Shown here piece after piece: positions 3,299 through 12,134 of a stretch of DNA of 20,047 nt. The stretch covers positions 1 through 20,047 of the IMG/VR virus record IMGVR_UViG_3300007520_001789; one strand, written 5' to 3'. Made by a program: the position numbers and the translations under genes. Origin of the DNA: a virus. Numbering within the stretch: the stretch's first letter is position 1; each line of letters opens with the position of its first letter. The notes beneath the pieces are model-generated. The model made no database searches. It saw nothing but the letters and a program-made list of their open reading frames with translations, and had not been told where the DNA came from.

Positions 3299-3919
3299 TC
3301 AAGTCCCCAAGTGCAACTTAACCAAATCCTGAACATCCGCCTTAACCGGCACAAGACCACCAAACAGCGTCAGCCGCACCCGCGCGCCAAACTCGGGGGT
3401 CAGTTCGACAACCTCGCACCGCTGACCCGCCATCGGTCCAGACCGAAACAGCGCCGTGTCGCCCACCCGAAGCCGCGCCGCCGCCGCCTTGCGCGCCCTT
3501 GCACCATCGCGCCGCGCCTCTTGCGCCGCATCCACCGCACGCATGGCATGCAGCGCCCGCAACCCTGATCGGTGCAACTGCCCCCAGTGCCCACTGGACA
3601 GACACAACGCCCCGGTCAGGAACGGACAGGTCATCACGGCAAAGGGGCGAGGCACTCCGGCAAACCGCGCGAACACATAGCCGGGCAGATAGCGCCGGGT
3701 ATAGTCGCGCACATGGCCACGCACCCGAACCATGCGCCCGACAACCGGGTGAAAGGCATAGACGCCCCGCGCCGCCAACCACCGCTCGGCAGCCTCTTCC
3801 CGCTGGGGCCGACACGTCAGGGCATACCACCCCGCCGGGCCGTCAAACCATAACCCCGGCACATCAACCAACGTCGCCGCGATCACGTCACCAACCGACA
3901 AAGCCTCATGACAACTCAT
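3299..3919 (-). CDS. NusG/RfaH-family transcription antitermination factor
   Basis: This is a 206-residue, phage-borne paralogue of NusG. The N-terminal NGN domain (about residues 30-105) shows GWYALTCRPQREEAAERWL, then the VRVRGHVRDYTRRYLPGYVF segment typical of RfaH-like proteins. A linker helix rich in Ala and Arg (about 120-148) joins it to a KOW domain (about 150-200: RLRVGDTALFRSGPMAGQ, then AAL-type beta strands). Such factors ride on RNA polymerase and suppress pausing and termination. The start overlaps the preceding gene by ATGA. The gene is the last one before the late genes, where lambda-type phages keep Q, so control of late transcription is the obvious inference. The N-terminal 28 residues are an extension beyond the NGN domain; their role is unknown. 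Confidence 0.88.
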   Translation of the reverse strand: MSCHEALSVGDVIAATLVDVPGLWFDGPAGWYALTCRPQREEAAERWLAARGVYAFHPVVGRMVRVRGHVRDYTRRYLPGYVFARFAGVPRPFAVMTCPFLTGALCLSSGHWGQLHRSGLRALHAMRAVDAAQEARRDGARARKAAAARLRVGDTALFRSGPMAGQRCEVVELTPEFGARVRLTLFGGLVPVKADVQDLVKLHLGT

Positions 3920-9140: not shown

Positions 9141-9515
9141 ATGACAGAACCCAAACCCCAACCATACATGAACAACGGTACCGTGCAGTTTTTCAACGCC
9201 GTAGAGCCCCGGCCCGCCAGAACCGAAACCTCTGGCAACGTCACGATCAACAACAACGGCACACCGGGGCAACCAGCCCATTTCAAGGTTAACTTCATCA
9301 TCACGGCCCCCTGCGACTTGCTGGATCTGGTGCACAATGTCTTACACTGGACATGCGTTGTTCCAGCAGACACAGACGAAGCTCAATATCGGCAAGTCGA
9401 GGATCAGGCGGCACAGCGTCTGCCCAGCCATCTGCGCGCGTTGGCAGATGCGCTTGAGACCCAGATTGCCGAAGCAACCGAAAAGCGCCACCAAGCCAAG
9501 CGCAAAGACGATTGA
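9141..9515 (+). CDS. Hypothetical moron-type protein with N-rich segment
   Basis: A 124-residue protein beginning MTEPKPQPYMNNG. The start was chosen because GGAGAG lies 6 bases upstream; the earlier in-frame ATG at 9087 adds a poorly supported stretch. The N-terminal third has two asparagine/glycine stretches (NNGTVQFFN and GNVTINNNG). A hydrophobic stretch follows (VNFIITAPCDLLDLVHNVL), and then a charged helix likely to form a coiled coil (about 75-120) with a lysine-rich tail. There is no signal peptide or clear membrane segment. No family was recognised. It runs against the surrounding leftward genes and its stop lies within repeat copy R2, as expected for an inserted cassette that may be expressed in the lysogen. 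Confidence 0.75.
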   Translation: MTEPKPQPYMNNGTVQFFNAVEPRPARTETSGNVTINNNGTPGQPAHFKVNFIITAPCDLLDLVHNVLHWTCVVPADTDEAQYRQVEDQAAQRLPSHLRALADALETQIAEATEKRHQAKRKDD

Positions 9516-9578
9516 TCCGTGGACGATCAGTTGGAGCAAATGAGGAAGGACGGGGCGCGGTCGTCATGCTGCGCCCCG
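9511..9578. repeat. 68-bp direct repeat, copy R2
   Basis: This is the second copy of the repeat at 9000-9067, offset by 511 bp. The stop codon of the plus-strand gene (9513-9515) lies in its first bases. The hairpin is kept (GGGGCGC 9552-9558 with GCGCCCC 9571-9577). On the minus strand the copy still encodes the pattern MTTAPRP...DRPRIN, but this frame then runs antisense to the plus-strand gene, so it is probably a remnant. Confidence 0.9.
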
Positions 9579-9614
9579 TTCATCTGTCGCGGTACTTGCG
9601 AGAATTAGAAAATT

Positions 9615-10058
9615 ATGCACTCTGGAAGAATGAACAATGACCCTTGGAATCGCCCGCGCCCGCCCACAACCGAACCGCCGGTGGTGCGCCGCAACGCGCC
9701 CGCGTCCGCCGCACCGCCCAAGGCAGGCAACGCCAAGACCTGTCCAAACTGTGACGCCGTTGTCTCGCCAAAGGCGTTCGACTGCCCCGGCTGCGGTCAC
9801 CCTTTGCGAAAGGCGCGTCGCGGCCCGATTGGCTGGACGCTGAAATGGCTGTTCATCGCCTTCAACCTGGTGATGGCGGTCTTGCTGTTCGCCGGTCTCG
9901 GATCGGTCGGAGAAACGATGAACACCGCAACATCCGAGGCGGAACGCGCTGGAACCGCCATCGGCGCAACCATTGGCACGGGCTTGGTTCTGGTCTTCTG
10001 GATGGCCGGTGCGGTCATCCTTGGACTGCTGGTGCTGCTGACCCGCCCGAAAAAGTAA
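9615..10058 (+). CDS. Zinc-ribbon membrane protein with two transmembrane helices
   Basis: A 147-residue protein. A proline-rich N-terminus (about residues 1-40) leads to a zinc ribbon CPNC (C43, C46) and CPGC (C57, C60), then a basic patch (RKARRG). Two membrane helices follow: about 75-96 (LKWLFIAFNLVMAVLLFAGL) and 118-142 (GTGLVLVFWMAGAVILGLLVLL). The C-terminus is LTRPKK. The likely topology places the ribbon in the cytoplasm. Zinc-ribbon plus membrane-helix proteins occur as small envelope or stress proteins; no specific family is claimed. The start is uncertain between ATG 9615 and ATG 9630 (MNNDPWN). The gene is oriented against its leftward neighbours and appears to be a second cassette. 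Confidence 0.78.
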   Translation: MHSGRMNNDPWNRPRPPTTEPPVVRRNAPASAAPPKAGNAKTCPNCDAVVSPKAFDCPGCGHPLRKARRGPIGWTLKWLFIAFNLVMAVLLFAGLGSVGETMNTATSEAERAGTAIGATIGTGLVLVFWMAGAVILGLLVLLTRPKK

Positions 10059-10078
10059 CTGGATCGAACCGGGGAACG

Positions 10079-10318
10079 TCATGCTGCGTCCTCAATCGAG
10101 CAATCTCTGGCCTTCAGCTTACTGAAACTGAACAGAGAGAAGTTGGGCGGGGCTATTCCAGCTTCACGCGCCAAGTCGCATGTTGCGCAGAAAAATTTTG
10201 TAGGAAGTGCACCAGCGGCAATGTGGGTGTGCAGGGTTGTCGGCTTCATTCCAAGCCTCGGCGCTACCCTTCGGTAGCCGCCCAAAGCTTCCACAAACTG
10301 TCTTGCTGTCTGATCCAT
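10079..10318 (-). CDS. Cro/YdaS-like phage regulator
   Basis: A 79-residue helix-turn-helix protein. The pattern FVEALGGYRRVAPRLGMKPTTLHTHIAAGALP (about residues 8-40) fits a Cro or YdaS-type DNA-binding domain, with the recognition helix near TTLHTHIAAG. It is transcribed away from the repressor and opens the leftward operon. Operator A lies 13-29 bases before its start codon. There is no ribosome binding site before the ATG, and a predicted -10 ends about 7 bases before it, so the message is probably leaderless. The stop TGA overlaps an ATG (ATGA) that now leads into a short-lived antisense frame, hinting that the next gene once followed directly. Confidence 0.78.
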   Translation of the reverse strand: MDQTARQFVEALGGYRRVAPRLGMKPTTLHTHIAAGALPTKFFCATCDLAREAGIAPPNFSLFSFSKLKARDCSIEDAA

Positions 10319-10324
10319 ATAGAA

Positions 10325-10353
10325 GGGTTAATCCGATATTTTCGGATTTTCAA
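10325..10353 (-). promoter_or_regulatory. Predicted leftward promoter for the Cro-like gene
   Basis: On the minus strand -35 TTGAAA (10353-10348) is followed by a 17-base spacer and a weak -10 TAACCC (10330-10325). The spacer is exactly operator A. Transcription would start near 10318, which is the A of the start codon. Confidence 0.45.
10331..10347. promoter_or_regulatory. Operator A (perfect inverted repeat)
   Basis: ATCCGA (10331-10336), 5 bases, TCGGAT (10342-10347). The symmetry extends one further base on each side. It lies between the divergent regulator genes and within the predicted leftward promoter, so it is expected to bind the phage repressor or the Cro-like protein. Confidence 0.85.
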
Positions 10354-10370
10354 GCACGAATGTGTGGCCT

Positions 10371-10387
10371 CTTCGATTTTCTCGGAT
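10371..10387. promoter_or_regulatory. Operator B (imperfect copy)
   Basis: CTTCGA (10371-10376), 5 bases, TCGGAT (10382-10387). The right arm is perfect and the left arm matches 4 of 6 positions. Its centre is 40 bp from that of operator A, about four helical turns. It overlaps the region just upstream of the repressor gene's -10, so it may serve autoregulation. Confidence 0.6.
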
Positions 10388-10394
10388 AGACCGG

Positions 10395-10400
10395 TATAAG
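10395..10400 (+). promoter_or_regulatory. Predicted -10 of the repressor promoter
   Basis: TATAAG matches the -10 consensus at 5 of 6 positions and ends 6 bases before the ATG of the repressor gene, which would put the RNA start at or beside that ATG. No good -35 box was found at the usual distance (TTCGAT at 10372-10377 is weak), as for promoters that need activation by the repressor itself. Confidence 0.45.
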
Positions 10401-10406
10401 TCGCGC

Positions 10407-10712
10407 ATGGAAATGACGCGCAATGAGAGCTTAGCGAGGTATCGTGACACGTCAGTCGCAGCGATCTCGCTGCGACTGCGCGCCGCACTTAAGGTTGCAC
10501 AAATCAGTCAGAAAGACATGGCGGCACAACTGGAAATCAGCCCTACAACGCTCAACTCACAGTTTACCAAAGGACGCCCCTCAAACGATACAATGGTTTT
10601 TTTCCACAGAAATCATAGGGTTGATCTAAATTTTATTATTCACGGCGATCTGGCACAACTTTCAGGCGACGTACAAAACGCATTAATAGCGGCTCTCGCT
10701 GATGAAGCGTAA
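10407..10712 (+). CDS. XRE-family phage repressor, CI-like, DNA-binding domain only
   Basis: A 101-residue protein, beginning MEMTRNESLARYRDT. The helix-turn-helix (about residues 20-57) reads ISLRLRAALKVAQIS, then QKDMAAQLEISPTTLNSQFTKG. Next comes HRVDLNFIIHGD, a pattern seen after the HTH in phage repressors. There is no LexA/S24 peptidase domain, so the protein cannot be cleaved in the classical SOS manner. The start at 10407 has no Shine-Dalgarno sequence but a -10 box 6 bases upstream, as for leaderless repressor messages. Base composition is distinctly richer in A+T than the neighbouring genes. It most likely maintains lysogeny by binding operators A-D. Confidence 0.82.
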   Translation: MEMTRNESLARYRDTSVAAISLRLRAALKVAQISQKDMAAQLEISPTTLNSQFTKGRPSNDTMVFFHRNHRVDLNFIIHGDLAQLSGDVQNALIAALADEA

Positions 10713-10867
10713 ACCTGAAATTGCCTAGGTAGTTGACGTTTACGCCCAGTTTTCGAGCGAGAATCAGAAGTCTAACCCACATGCTGAAACCCCCCTGTGA
10801 CCGCCGCAGTGTTCTTGGTTTGATCTCACACGTCAACTCACTTGGGCGACCTGCATACCATTAGCCT
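10713..10867. other. Non-coding stretch with a 9-bp distant inverted repeat
   Basis: No convincing gene is present. The arms AGTTGACGT (10731-10739) and ACGTCAACT (10830-10838) are perfectly complementary and about 90 bases apart. Each contains TTGACG, which resembles a -35 element on opposite strands, but matching -10 boxes are poor. A 66-codon frame on the minus strand here begins with TTG and shows no family pattern. Confidence 0.35.
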
Positions 10868-10884
10868 ATCCGATTATTTCGGAT
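10868..10884. promoter_or_regulatory. Operator C (perfect inverted repeat)
   Basis: ATCCGA (10868-10873), 5 bases, TCGGAT (10879-10884), the same site as operator A. Its centre is 30 bp, three helical turns, from that of operator D, which favours cooperative binding on one face of the DNA. Confidence 0.85.
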
Positions 10885-10891
10885 TTTTCAA

Positions 10892-10919
10892 TTTACAATC
10901 CGAATATTTCGGATATAGG
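10892..10919 (+). promoter_or_regulatory. Predicted promoter of the rightward operon
   Basis: -35 TTTACA (10892-10897), 16-base spacer, -10 TATAGG (10914-10919). Operator D fills the spacer, so repressor binding would exclude RNA polymerase. The RNA should start near 10926. Its first bases then form the hairpin CCATCA (10925-10930) with TGATGG (10935-10940), whose 3' arm enters the GGAG ribosome binding site of the first gene. Confidence 0.6.
10898..10914. promoter_or_regulatory. Operator D (perfect inverted repeat)
   Basis: ATCCGA (10898-10903), 5 bases, TCGGAT (10909-10914). It lies between the -35 and -10 of the rightward promoter and is the fourth member of the operator set. Confidence 0.85.
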
Positions 10920-10949
10920 TTGCCCCATCACCCTTGATGGAGCCTCACC

Positions 10950-11288
10950 ATGAACGCGCGCCCGATATTCCAGCATCCAGGCATCGCCGTCTTCGCGCTT
11001 GCCGCCCTCGCCGCCTGCGCACAGTCGCCCGACGCTATTGCCCCGGTCAACATGGGCAACGCGTTCGCCGCCACAGCCTGCCGCCAGGCACAGGCCGATC
11101 TGATCACCGAGCGCCAGAGCCTCGCCGCACTGTCTGCCCAACAGCAGAACGCGGTCGCCGGTGACGCCATCGGCGTGTTCCTGATCGGTGTGCCAATGGC
11201 CAGCCTGACCGGCGGCGACAAGGCCGGTCTGATCGCCGCCAGCAAGGGCAAGATCATTGCCCTGGAAACGCGGGTGGCGTCGTGCTGA
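10950..11288 (+). CDS. Phage-encoded lipoprotein
   Basis: A 112-residue protein. The N-terminus MNARPIFQHPGIAVFALAALAACAQSPD is a type II signal peptide with the lipobox LAAC; Cys23 should be lipidated. The mature part is short: an Ala/Gln-rich helix (about 40-68), then a glycine-containing hydrophobic stretch (GDAIGVFLIGVPMASLTGGD, 72-91) and a C-terminal helix ending in ASC. Lipoproteins expressed early from phages can block superinfection or alter the envelope, but nothing here proves that. It is the first gene of the rightward operon, with ribosome binding site GGAG about 7 bases before the ATG. Operators C and D control it, so it should be silent in the quiet lysogen unless another promoter acts. 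Confidence 0.8.
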   Translation: MNARPIFQHPGIAVFALAALAACAQSPDAIAPVNMGNAFAATACRQAQADLITERQSLAALSAQQQNAVAGDAIGVFLIGVPMASLTGGDKAGLIAASKGKIIALETRVASC

Positions 11289-11500
11289 ACCCCAGGCACC
11301 ATTCAACCACACCCAAGCTCATCAACCTGTCGGCCTTTCGCGCCCTTGACGGCGACACAGGCGCGGCAGGCTTCACCACACCCCAGGGCCGGGTGCGCGA
11401 AAAAAAGATGCCCTACGGCTGGTGGATACTTCCCACGATGGTGGTTGGCGCACTCCTGTGGACGCTGATTATCAAGATGATCCTGAGGTGGGTGTGGTGA
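11282..11500 (+). CDS. Small single-pass membrane protein
   Basis: A 72-residue protein beginning with GTG, 7 bases inside the end of the lipoprotein gene. The first 45 residues are polar and basic (AFRALDGDTG, RVREKK). The C-terminal part is one membrane helix (about 46-68: WWILPTMVVGALLWTLIIKMI) followed by LRWVW. The polar side before the helix is rich in Lys/Arg, which predicts a cytoplasmic N-terminus. Function unknown; small membrane proteins next to lysis or exclusion genes are common in phages. An internal ATG at 11408 (MPYGWW) would give a 30-residue protein with just the helix. Confidence 0.62.
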   Translation: MLNPRHHSTTPKLINLSAFRALDGDTGAAGFTTPQGRVREKKMPYGWWILPTMVVGALLWTLIIKMILRWVW

Positions 11501-11712
11501 CCGCCCTGCCGCAATTCGCCCGGTTCTGGATGATCTGCCGCAAACCCACCCGGCTGGATGGGAGAACCGAACCGCGCCAGCGCTATTCCACCCGCGCCGA
11601 TGCCTTTCACGACGCACAGCGTCTGGCCGACCAACTCGACGCGCCGTTCCTCATTCTCGAGGCGGTTGAAATCATCCGCCCCGGCACCAATCAGAAAGGG
11701 CTTGACCTGTGA
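11497..11712 (+). CDS. Hypothetical phage protein, 71 residues
   Basis: The GTG start overlaps the previous stop as GTGA, with GAGGTGGG just upstream as ribosome binding site. The product begins MTALPQFARFWMICRKPTR and continues with basic and aromatic residues, a helix (AFHDAQRLADQLDAPFLILEAVEII) and a polar end. The layout (beta strand with RxxYSTRADAFHDAQRLA, then FLILEA) looks like a small alpha/beta domain that handles a modified substrate or protein partner. No family was recognised. The stop again overlaps the next GTG (GTGA). Confidence 0.68.
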   Translation: MTALPQFARFWMICRKPTRLDGRTEPRQRYSTRADAFHDAQRLADQLDAPFLILEAVEIIRPGTNQKGLDL

Positions 11713-12134
11713 CCCCTGAAATTCACCTGCTGACCCGCATTCTCGAATCCGCCGAACTGCTGGGCTACGTCGGACGCGCCCAGATGGTGCTGCACACCGT
11801 CCAGTGCCACGGCACGATGAGCGCCCGCGCGCGCGGCCCCCGCGATTTTACCGAACCTCTGACGATCCTTGACGCCCTGGGCGCCATCGGCGAGGGCGAA
11901 ACAATCGACATCGCCGTCGCCGGATGGCTGCGCAGCGCGCGGGCCGAACTGTGCCGCCTGCGCCGGATCGAACGCGCCCTCGCCACCCTTGCCGCGCCCG
12001 CATCGCCCGACGAATGCCGCGCCGCCTGTGAAACCCTGCTCACCATGTCGCCCCGGTTCGACCACGTCACGCTGGCCCGCCAGCACCTTGAAACCCTGCC
12101 CCCGGCCCGCGCCCATGCCCACGCTGCCGAGTGA
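11709..12134 (+). CDS. Hypothetical phage protein, 141 residues
   Basis: The GTG start at 11709 shares GTGA with the previous stop. The protein is all-helical by pattern: LTRILESAELLGYVGRAQMVL, then a short loop, then DALGAIGEGETIDIAVAGWL, then three helices with many Ala/Arg/Leu. The C-terminus ends in AHAHAAE. The end of the gene shares 16 bases (including codons for AAE and the stop) with the end of the gene at 12843-13343. Function unknown. Confidence 0.7.
   Translation: MTPEIHLLTRILESAELLGYVGRAQMVLHTVQCHGTMSARARGPRDFTEPLTILDALGAIGEGETIDIAVAGWLRSARAELCRLRRIERALATLAAPASPDECRAACETLLTMSPRFDHVTLARQHLETLPPARAHAHAAE

Follow-up and report, generated by a model that had tools for sequence, protein, structure and literature searches.

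A probable CI/Cro-type lysogeny switch with four operators around a small repressor gene in Rhodobacterales phages

Introduction

In the CI-Cro switches of phages lambda, P22 and 434, divergent genes for a repressor and a Cro protein are controlled through palindromic operators that overlap promoters, and the repressor carries a lambda-repressor-like HTH domain. Lambdoid CI proteins are further characterised by a C-terminal S24 peptidase/oligomerisation domain, and lambdoid immunity regions by three operators at both OL and OR. The P2 C repressor (99 aa), which has no peptidase domain, binds direct repeats. Temperate phages of Paracoccus carry divergent XRE-type CI-like and Cro-like genes, and most of their CI proteins lack the S24 peptidase domain (PMC6536676). 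In Cluster A mycobacteriophages, operator letters diverge together with the repressor and define immunity groups (PMC6550527).

The window analysed here (the whole stretch of DNA, an IMG/VR viral record that is linear, 20047 bases long and free of host sequence) very probably contains a CI/Cro-type lysis-lysogeny switch of a temperate Rhodobacterales phage, in which one repressor acts on both arms. It shares with lambda, P22 and 434 the divergent repressor and Cro genes, the promoter-overlapping palindromic operators and the lambda-repressor-like HTH. However, its repressor has 101 aa and lacks the peptidase/oligomerisation domain, two sites on each side flank the repressor gene instead of three, cro is predicted to be leaderless, and one of the sites, B, is placed to repress rather than activate the repressor promoter. 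The repressor resembles P2 C in size, in fold (2xcj, Z 5.7 over 80 residues) and in having no peptidase domain, but its sites are four inverted repeats rather than direct repeats, which sets the locus apart from the P2 type. The CI/Cro regions of Paracoccus phages are similar in their divergent genes and in their CI without S24, and operators are not described there (PMC6536676). As with the Cluster A stoperators, operator letters diverge with the repressor, although the latter are 20-30 asymmetric monomer sites spread genome-wide, whereas the window has four palindromes in one region (PMC6550527). We regard the locus as a real, conserved lysogeny switch of the CI/Cro kind, but not strictly as a lambdoid immunity region. 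No paper describing this four-site operator set was found in the open-licence literature.

Four operators and two regulatory genes

The palindrome ATCCGA-N5-TCGGAT is perfect at three positions of the window (10331, 10868 and 10898); at a fourth (10371), four of the six left-arm letters and all six right-arm letters match.

Operator A, 10331..10347, no strand: perfect; fills the spacer of the leftward promoter and recurs in relatives
Operator B, 10371..10387, no strand: two left-arm mismatches; predicted autoregulatory site
Operator C, 10868..10884, no strand: perfect; 30 bp upstream of D
Operator D, 10898..10914, no strand: perfect; fills the spacer of the rightward promoter
Repressor gene, 10407..10712, plus strand: 101 aa, lambda-repressor-like HTH (profile match and structure model)
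Cro-like gene, 10079..10318, minus strand: 79 aa (AlphaFold model); ATG 12 nt past A

Base composition predicts 0.0008 perfect sites across the window, and finding this 12-letter palindrome three times without a mismatch in 20 kb greatly exceeds chance. The letters and coordinates given in an earlier note on this DNA were all recovered, including the incomplete left arm at 10371, as were the distances that it gives between site centres (A-B 40 bp, C-D 30 bp) and its ORFs of 101 and 79 residues. That note had also proposed a genome-wide search with the 17-bp pattern: with up to two mismatches allowed, A, B, C and D are the only matches in the 20 kb, while shuffled windows hold 0.92 such sites on average and one shuffle in 100 reaches four. 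In the 4.6-Mb genome of Oceanicola sp. S124, perfect sites are confined to A, C and D of the resident prophage, three in all, so that the repressor there appears to be dedicated to the switch.

The window repressor matches phrog_2328, a transcriptional repressor family, over residues 15-74 (E 7.6e-7). Its structure model (pLDDT 88.4) consists of an HTH domain with a short C-terminal helical extension, one helix at the end, and its structural neighbours are P22 c2 (Z 6.4), the 434 repressor (Z 6.2) and P2 C (Z 5.7). Many lambda-like repressors match the HTH domain at Z of about 6, and Foldseek E-values are weak. A Pfam search of the repressor found no S24 peptidase/oligomerisation domain, so direct RecA-stimulated self-cleavage is not expected. 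The structures nearest to the model of the Cro-like protein (pLDDT 84.5) are Cro proteins, those of Xfaso 1 (Z 6.8), P22 (Z 5.8) and N15. For both proteins the Z values are modest and indicate the fold rather than the function. Folds and comparison thus support the small repressor and Cro-like protein of the earlier note, and their binding to the sites is predicted.

Related loci in Rhodobacterales

Single-protein scans of viral contigs with the window repressor or Cro returned no relatives, whereas an alignment of three repressors used as query drew in 20 viral loci. The repressor family is present in 11 of 395 genomes from the family of Oceanicola sp. S124, in 21 of 391 from its order and in two of 385 sampled over the whole class, a distribution centred on Rhodobacterales. 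Once near-duplicates had been removed, 44 non-redundant relatives from viral contigs and Rhodobacterales genomes, window included, were available for comparison.

A scan for paired sites detected all four operators in a viral contig (L011) and in Oceanicola sp. S124 (L028), and three of them in two further loci (L004 and L008). In all four loci the sites surround the gene of a small repressor and, divergent from it, that of a Cro-like protein. Identity to the window is 44% for the repressor and 48% for Cro in L011, and 57% and 46%, respectively, in L028. The L004 and L008 repressors have 22% identity to that of the window and are missed by the family profile, which makes them either remote relatives or parallels. 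In genomes, the pair pattern mostly matches unrelated repeats or hairpin-like sites outside Alphaproteobacteria, and Oceanicola sp. S124 is the only clear member.

Among named phages, the window repressor, the window Cro, a close relative (L078) and the L004 repressor have no match, and no record matches the repressors of the window or of two relatives at good coverage; the repressor of another relative has one weak partial match. The only near DNA match of the window in named phages is a methyltransferase stretch in a Paracoccus phage. A family repressor also occurs on a plasmid of Sulfitobacter sp. SK025 (L129, 20001-20297), amid many transposases and a short integrase, in what is probably a decayed prophage.

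A conserved geometry

For each locus, we retained the best four 6-N5-6 palindromes sharing any letters, with spacings left free between 20 and 60 bp. A-B spacing is 39-41 bp in 35 of the 44 relatives (6.0% of shuffles) and 31 bp in three others, and C-D spacing is 30-31 bp in 35 of 44 (5.2% of shuffles). The four-site score exceeds all 25 shuffles of the same locus in 37 of 44, while nine relatives lack the full layout; the relatives share ancestry and should not be counted as independent events. Members of the main group have A and B about 75 and 35 bp before the repressor start, and C and D about 455 and 485 bp after it; other members have an insert ahead of C.

The earlier note considered that a DNA loop could join the two pairs. 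Such a loop, made by repressor oligomers as in lambda, would be an addition to the switch rather than an alternative to it. The repressor gene does lie between the pairs, whose distance is most often about 0.55-0.57 kb, and spacing within pairs is near three and four helical turns. However, A-D distances span 550 to 1032 bp without sharing a helical phase, whereas the spacing within pairs is fixed, and the repressor lacks a C-terminal oligomerisation domain of the lambda type. Looping between pairs is thus unsupported and we consider it unlikely, and this reading was set aside. Cooperation within pairs, by contrast, would fit the data.

Two other arrangements were encountered. In two phage records, a C-D-like pair with 31-bp spacing precedes small genes, including one for an HTH-like protein (L006, 2585-2632; L010, 1055-1102). 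No A or B site is present anywhere in either record with up to one mismatch allowed. The pair may belong to a related control region that uses another repressor. Two viral contigs carry three ATCCGAG-type palindromes spaced by 21 bp (L005, 1579-1637; L007, 990-1048), apparently a different operator array.

Promoters and translation starts

By sequence and comparison, the shared operators overlap both early promoters, and a third promoter is predicted for the repressor gene.

-10 of the leftward promoter, 10325..10330, minus strand: TAACCC, 6 nt before the cro ATG; a weak match alone
-35 of the leftward promoter, 10348..10353, minus strand: TTGAAA, from sequence; the TTG position recurs in relatives
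Predicted -35 of the repressor promoter, 10372..10377, plus strand: TTCGAT, inside the B left arm, 17 bp before TATAAG
Predicted -10 of the repressor promoter, 10395..10400, plus strand: TATAAG, 6 nt before the ATG
-35 of the rightward promoter, 10892..10897, plus strand: TTTACA; TT lies 6 bp before D in 22 of 35 loci

The promoter placement of A and D described in the earlier note is recovered: operator A lies exactly between TTGAAA and TAACCC of the minus strand, and D occupies the gap between TTTACA and either ATAGGT (17 bp) or TATAGG (16 bp). The -10 boxes of the window are poor matches and a consensus sigma-70 scan of 9500..11800 yields no promoter at its threshold, so the promoter reading rests on the relatives. 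On the leftward strand, 29 of 35 loci have TTG precisely 6 bp ahead of A, and 25 of 35 have TA immediately after it. At the corresponding position of the opposite strand of A, or of either C strand, TTG is present in zero or one locus. Relatives also have a TA-rich hexamer 7-12 nt ahead of the repressor ATG.

The cro ATG is found 11-14 nt past A in 35 of 35 loci (12 nt in the window), which probably makes the cro mRNA leaderless. A transcript whose start lies 6-7 nt past the -10 would begin at the cro AUG or within about two nt of it, and a Shine-Dalgarno-like motif precedes cro in one of 35 loci, compared with 24 of 31 for the first right-arm gene. Similarly, among the 29 loci that have an ATG within range, the repressor ATG lies 17-19 nt past B in 26, and a Shine-Dalgarno motif precedes it in two of 29. 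Both divergent genes therefore appear to be leaderless, a trait overlooked in the earlier note.

That note also recorded the imperfect match of B but missed a probable reason for it. The left arm of B has on average 2.09 mismatches to the locus consensus, against 0.66-1.26 for the other arms, and its third position is T in 20 of the 29 loci whose consensus is not T. The deviation is common to relatives, so the four-of-six match is a shared trait, and the best explanation is probably that this arm overlaps the predicted -35 of the repressor gene. Weaker repressor binding at B would go together with an autoregulatory role.

Operator letters follow the recognition helix

Site letters vary among loci (ATCCGA, GTCCGA, ATCTGA, ATACGA, GTCCAT, GTACAT, GTTCAG, GTCCAG, ACTCAT and others). 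Operator distance correlates with the distance between repressor recognition helices given the rest of the repressor (partial r 0.61, Mantel p 0.0005). No such correlation is seen with the rest of the repressor once the helix is accounted for (0.03, p 0.33); this partial test handles phylogenetic non-independence only in part. At operator position 5, G is found only with Gln at the residue aligned to Gln52 of the window (19 of 19), and three Gln52-type repressors have A there. This covariation is the strongest evidence that the repressor reads the sites. The Cro helix is split by the same position, with H-x-H/Y for G (18) and S/T-N for A (13) and two exceptions, which is indirect evidence that Cro reads the sites too.

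The latter result would also be expected if only the Cro-like protein, or a host regulator, used the sites while the 101-aa protein acted elsewhere. We regard this as quite improbable, because the repressor helix tracks operator letters beyond the rest of the protein and B stands at a fixed distance from the repressor start; moreover, it is simpler for both proteins to read the same sites. Finally, a reading of the inverted repeats as short RNA hairpins or as terminators, instead of operators, is barely credible: C followed by its T run does score as terminator-like, and many unrelated pair-pattern matches in other phyla resemble hairpins or repeats, but the sites lie inside promoters and upstream of start codons, pairing extends over just 6 bp, and fixed spacing and helix covariation would be left unexplained, so that the terminator reading was set aside.

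A model for the switch and its significance

Under the CI/Cro-type switch, the 101-aa HTH repressor would bind the 17-bp palindrome as a dimer. A dimer on A, between -35 and -10, would turn off cro and the downstream leftward genes, and the rightward promoter would be turned off by dimers on C and D, which are separated by three helical turns. At high concentration, a dimer on B would limit repressor synthesis, because the left arm of B would double as the -35 element of the repressor gene. The Cro-like protein is a probable competitor for these operators and would tip the switch towards lysis.

With moderate confidence, we propose that these loci form an undescribed family of Rhodobacterales phage switches, with a frozen geometry (A-B about 40 bp, C-D about 31 bp), about ten operator alphabets, repressor and Cro helices that change together, two leaderless divergent genes, and an operator arm that doubles as a -35 and thereby builds in autoregulation. 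Its value lies in this frozen geometry with changing letters. Phage immunity specificity is usually worked out repressor by repressor, while one family whose scaffold stays unchanged across about ten matched alphabets of repressor and operator would make a recognition code readable from sequence and testable. The immunity groups of uncultivated phages could be predicted from the family's operator letters, and the family's repressor-operator pairs are a natural collection on which to test the blocking of one virus by another. The switch would also be compact, its divergent genes apparently leaderless, and our searches returned no described operator set for this host group.

Neighbouring genes

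On the right, D is followed by a hairpin and by the first gene of the rightward operon.

Hairpin CCATC-loop-GATGG, 10925..10942, plus strand: 5'-terminal in the rightward transcript, overlapping the Shine-Dalgarno of its first gene; -7.1 kcal/mol
First gene of the rightward operon, 10950..11288, plus strand: 112 aa, lipoprotein-like

Similar hairpins follow D in many relatives, with arms that hardly vary. The hairpin may affect translation or stability.

The left of the window carries terminase, tail, NusG-like and ParB-like genes, and the right carries methyltransferase, excisionase-like and integrase genes. This agrees with a 44-kb relative (G1028), in which replication, terminase, portal, protease, capsid, tail and lysozyme-type genes are on the cro side, with a methyltransferase and an integrase on the opposite side. 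An ORF for a zinc-ribbon membrane-like protein (9615-10058, plus strand; phrog_6586, E 1.1e-21) is convergent with cro and separates it from the rest of the left arm in the window; another convergent gene stands at the same place, just beyond cro, in G1028. The proposal of the earlier note that one repressor silences both arms thus holds in part. Control of the leftward (cro-side) and rightward promoters is supported by the four-site layout in 35 of 44 relatives and by the helix-tracking letters, but the convergent gene interrupts the left arm. Further along this arm, the NusG-like protein (3299-3919, minus strand; Pfam NusG, 3.3e-7; phrog_6386 antiterminator, 3.8e-14) is a candidate antiterminator of late genes.
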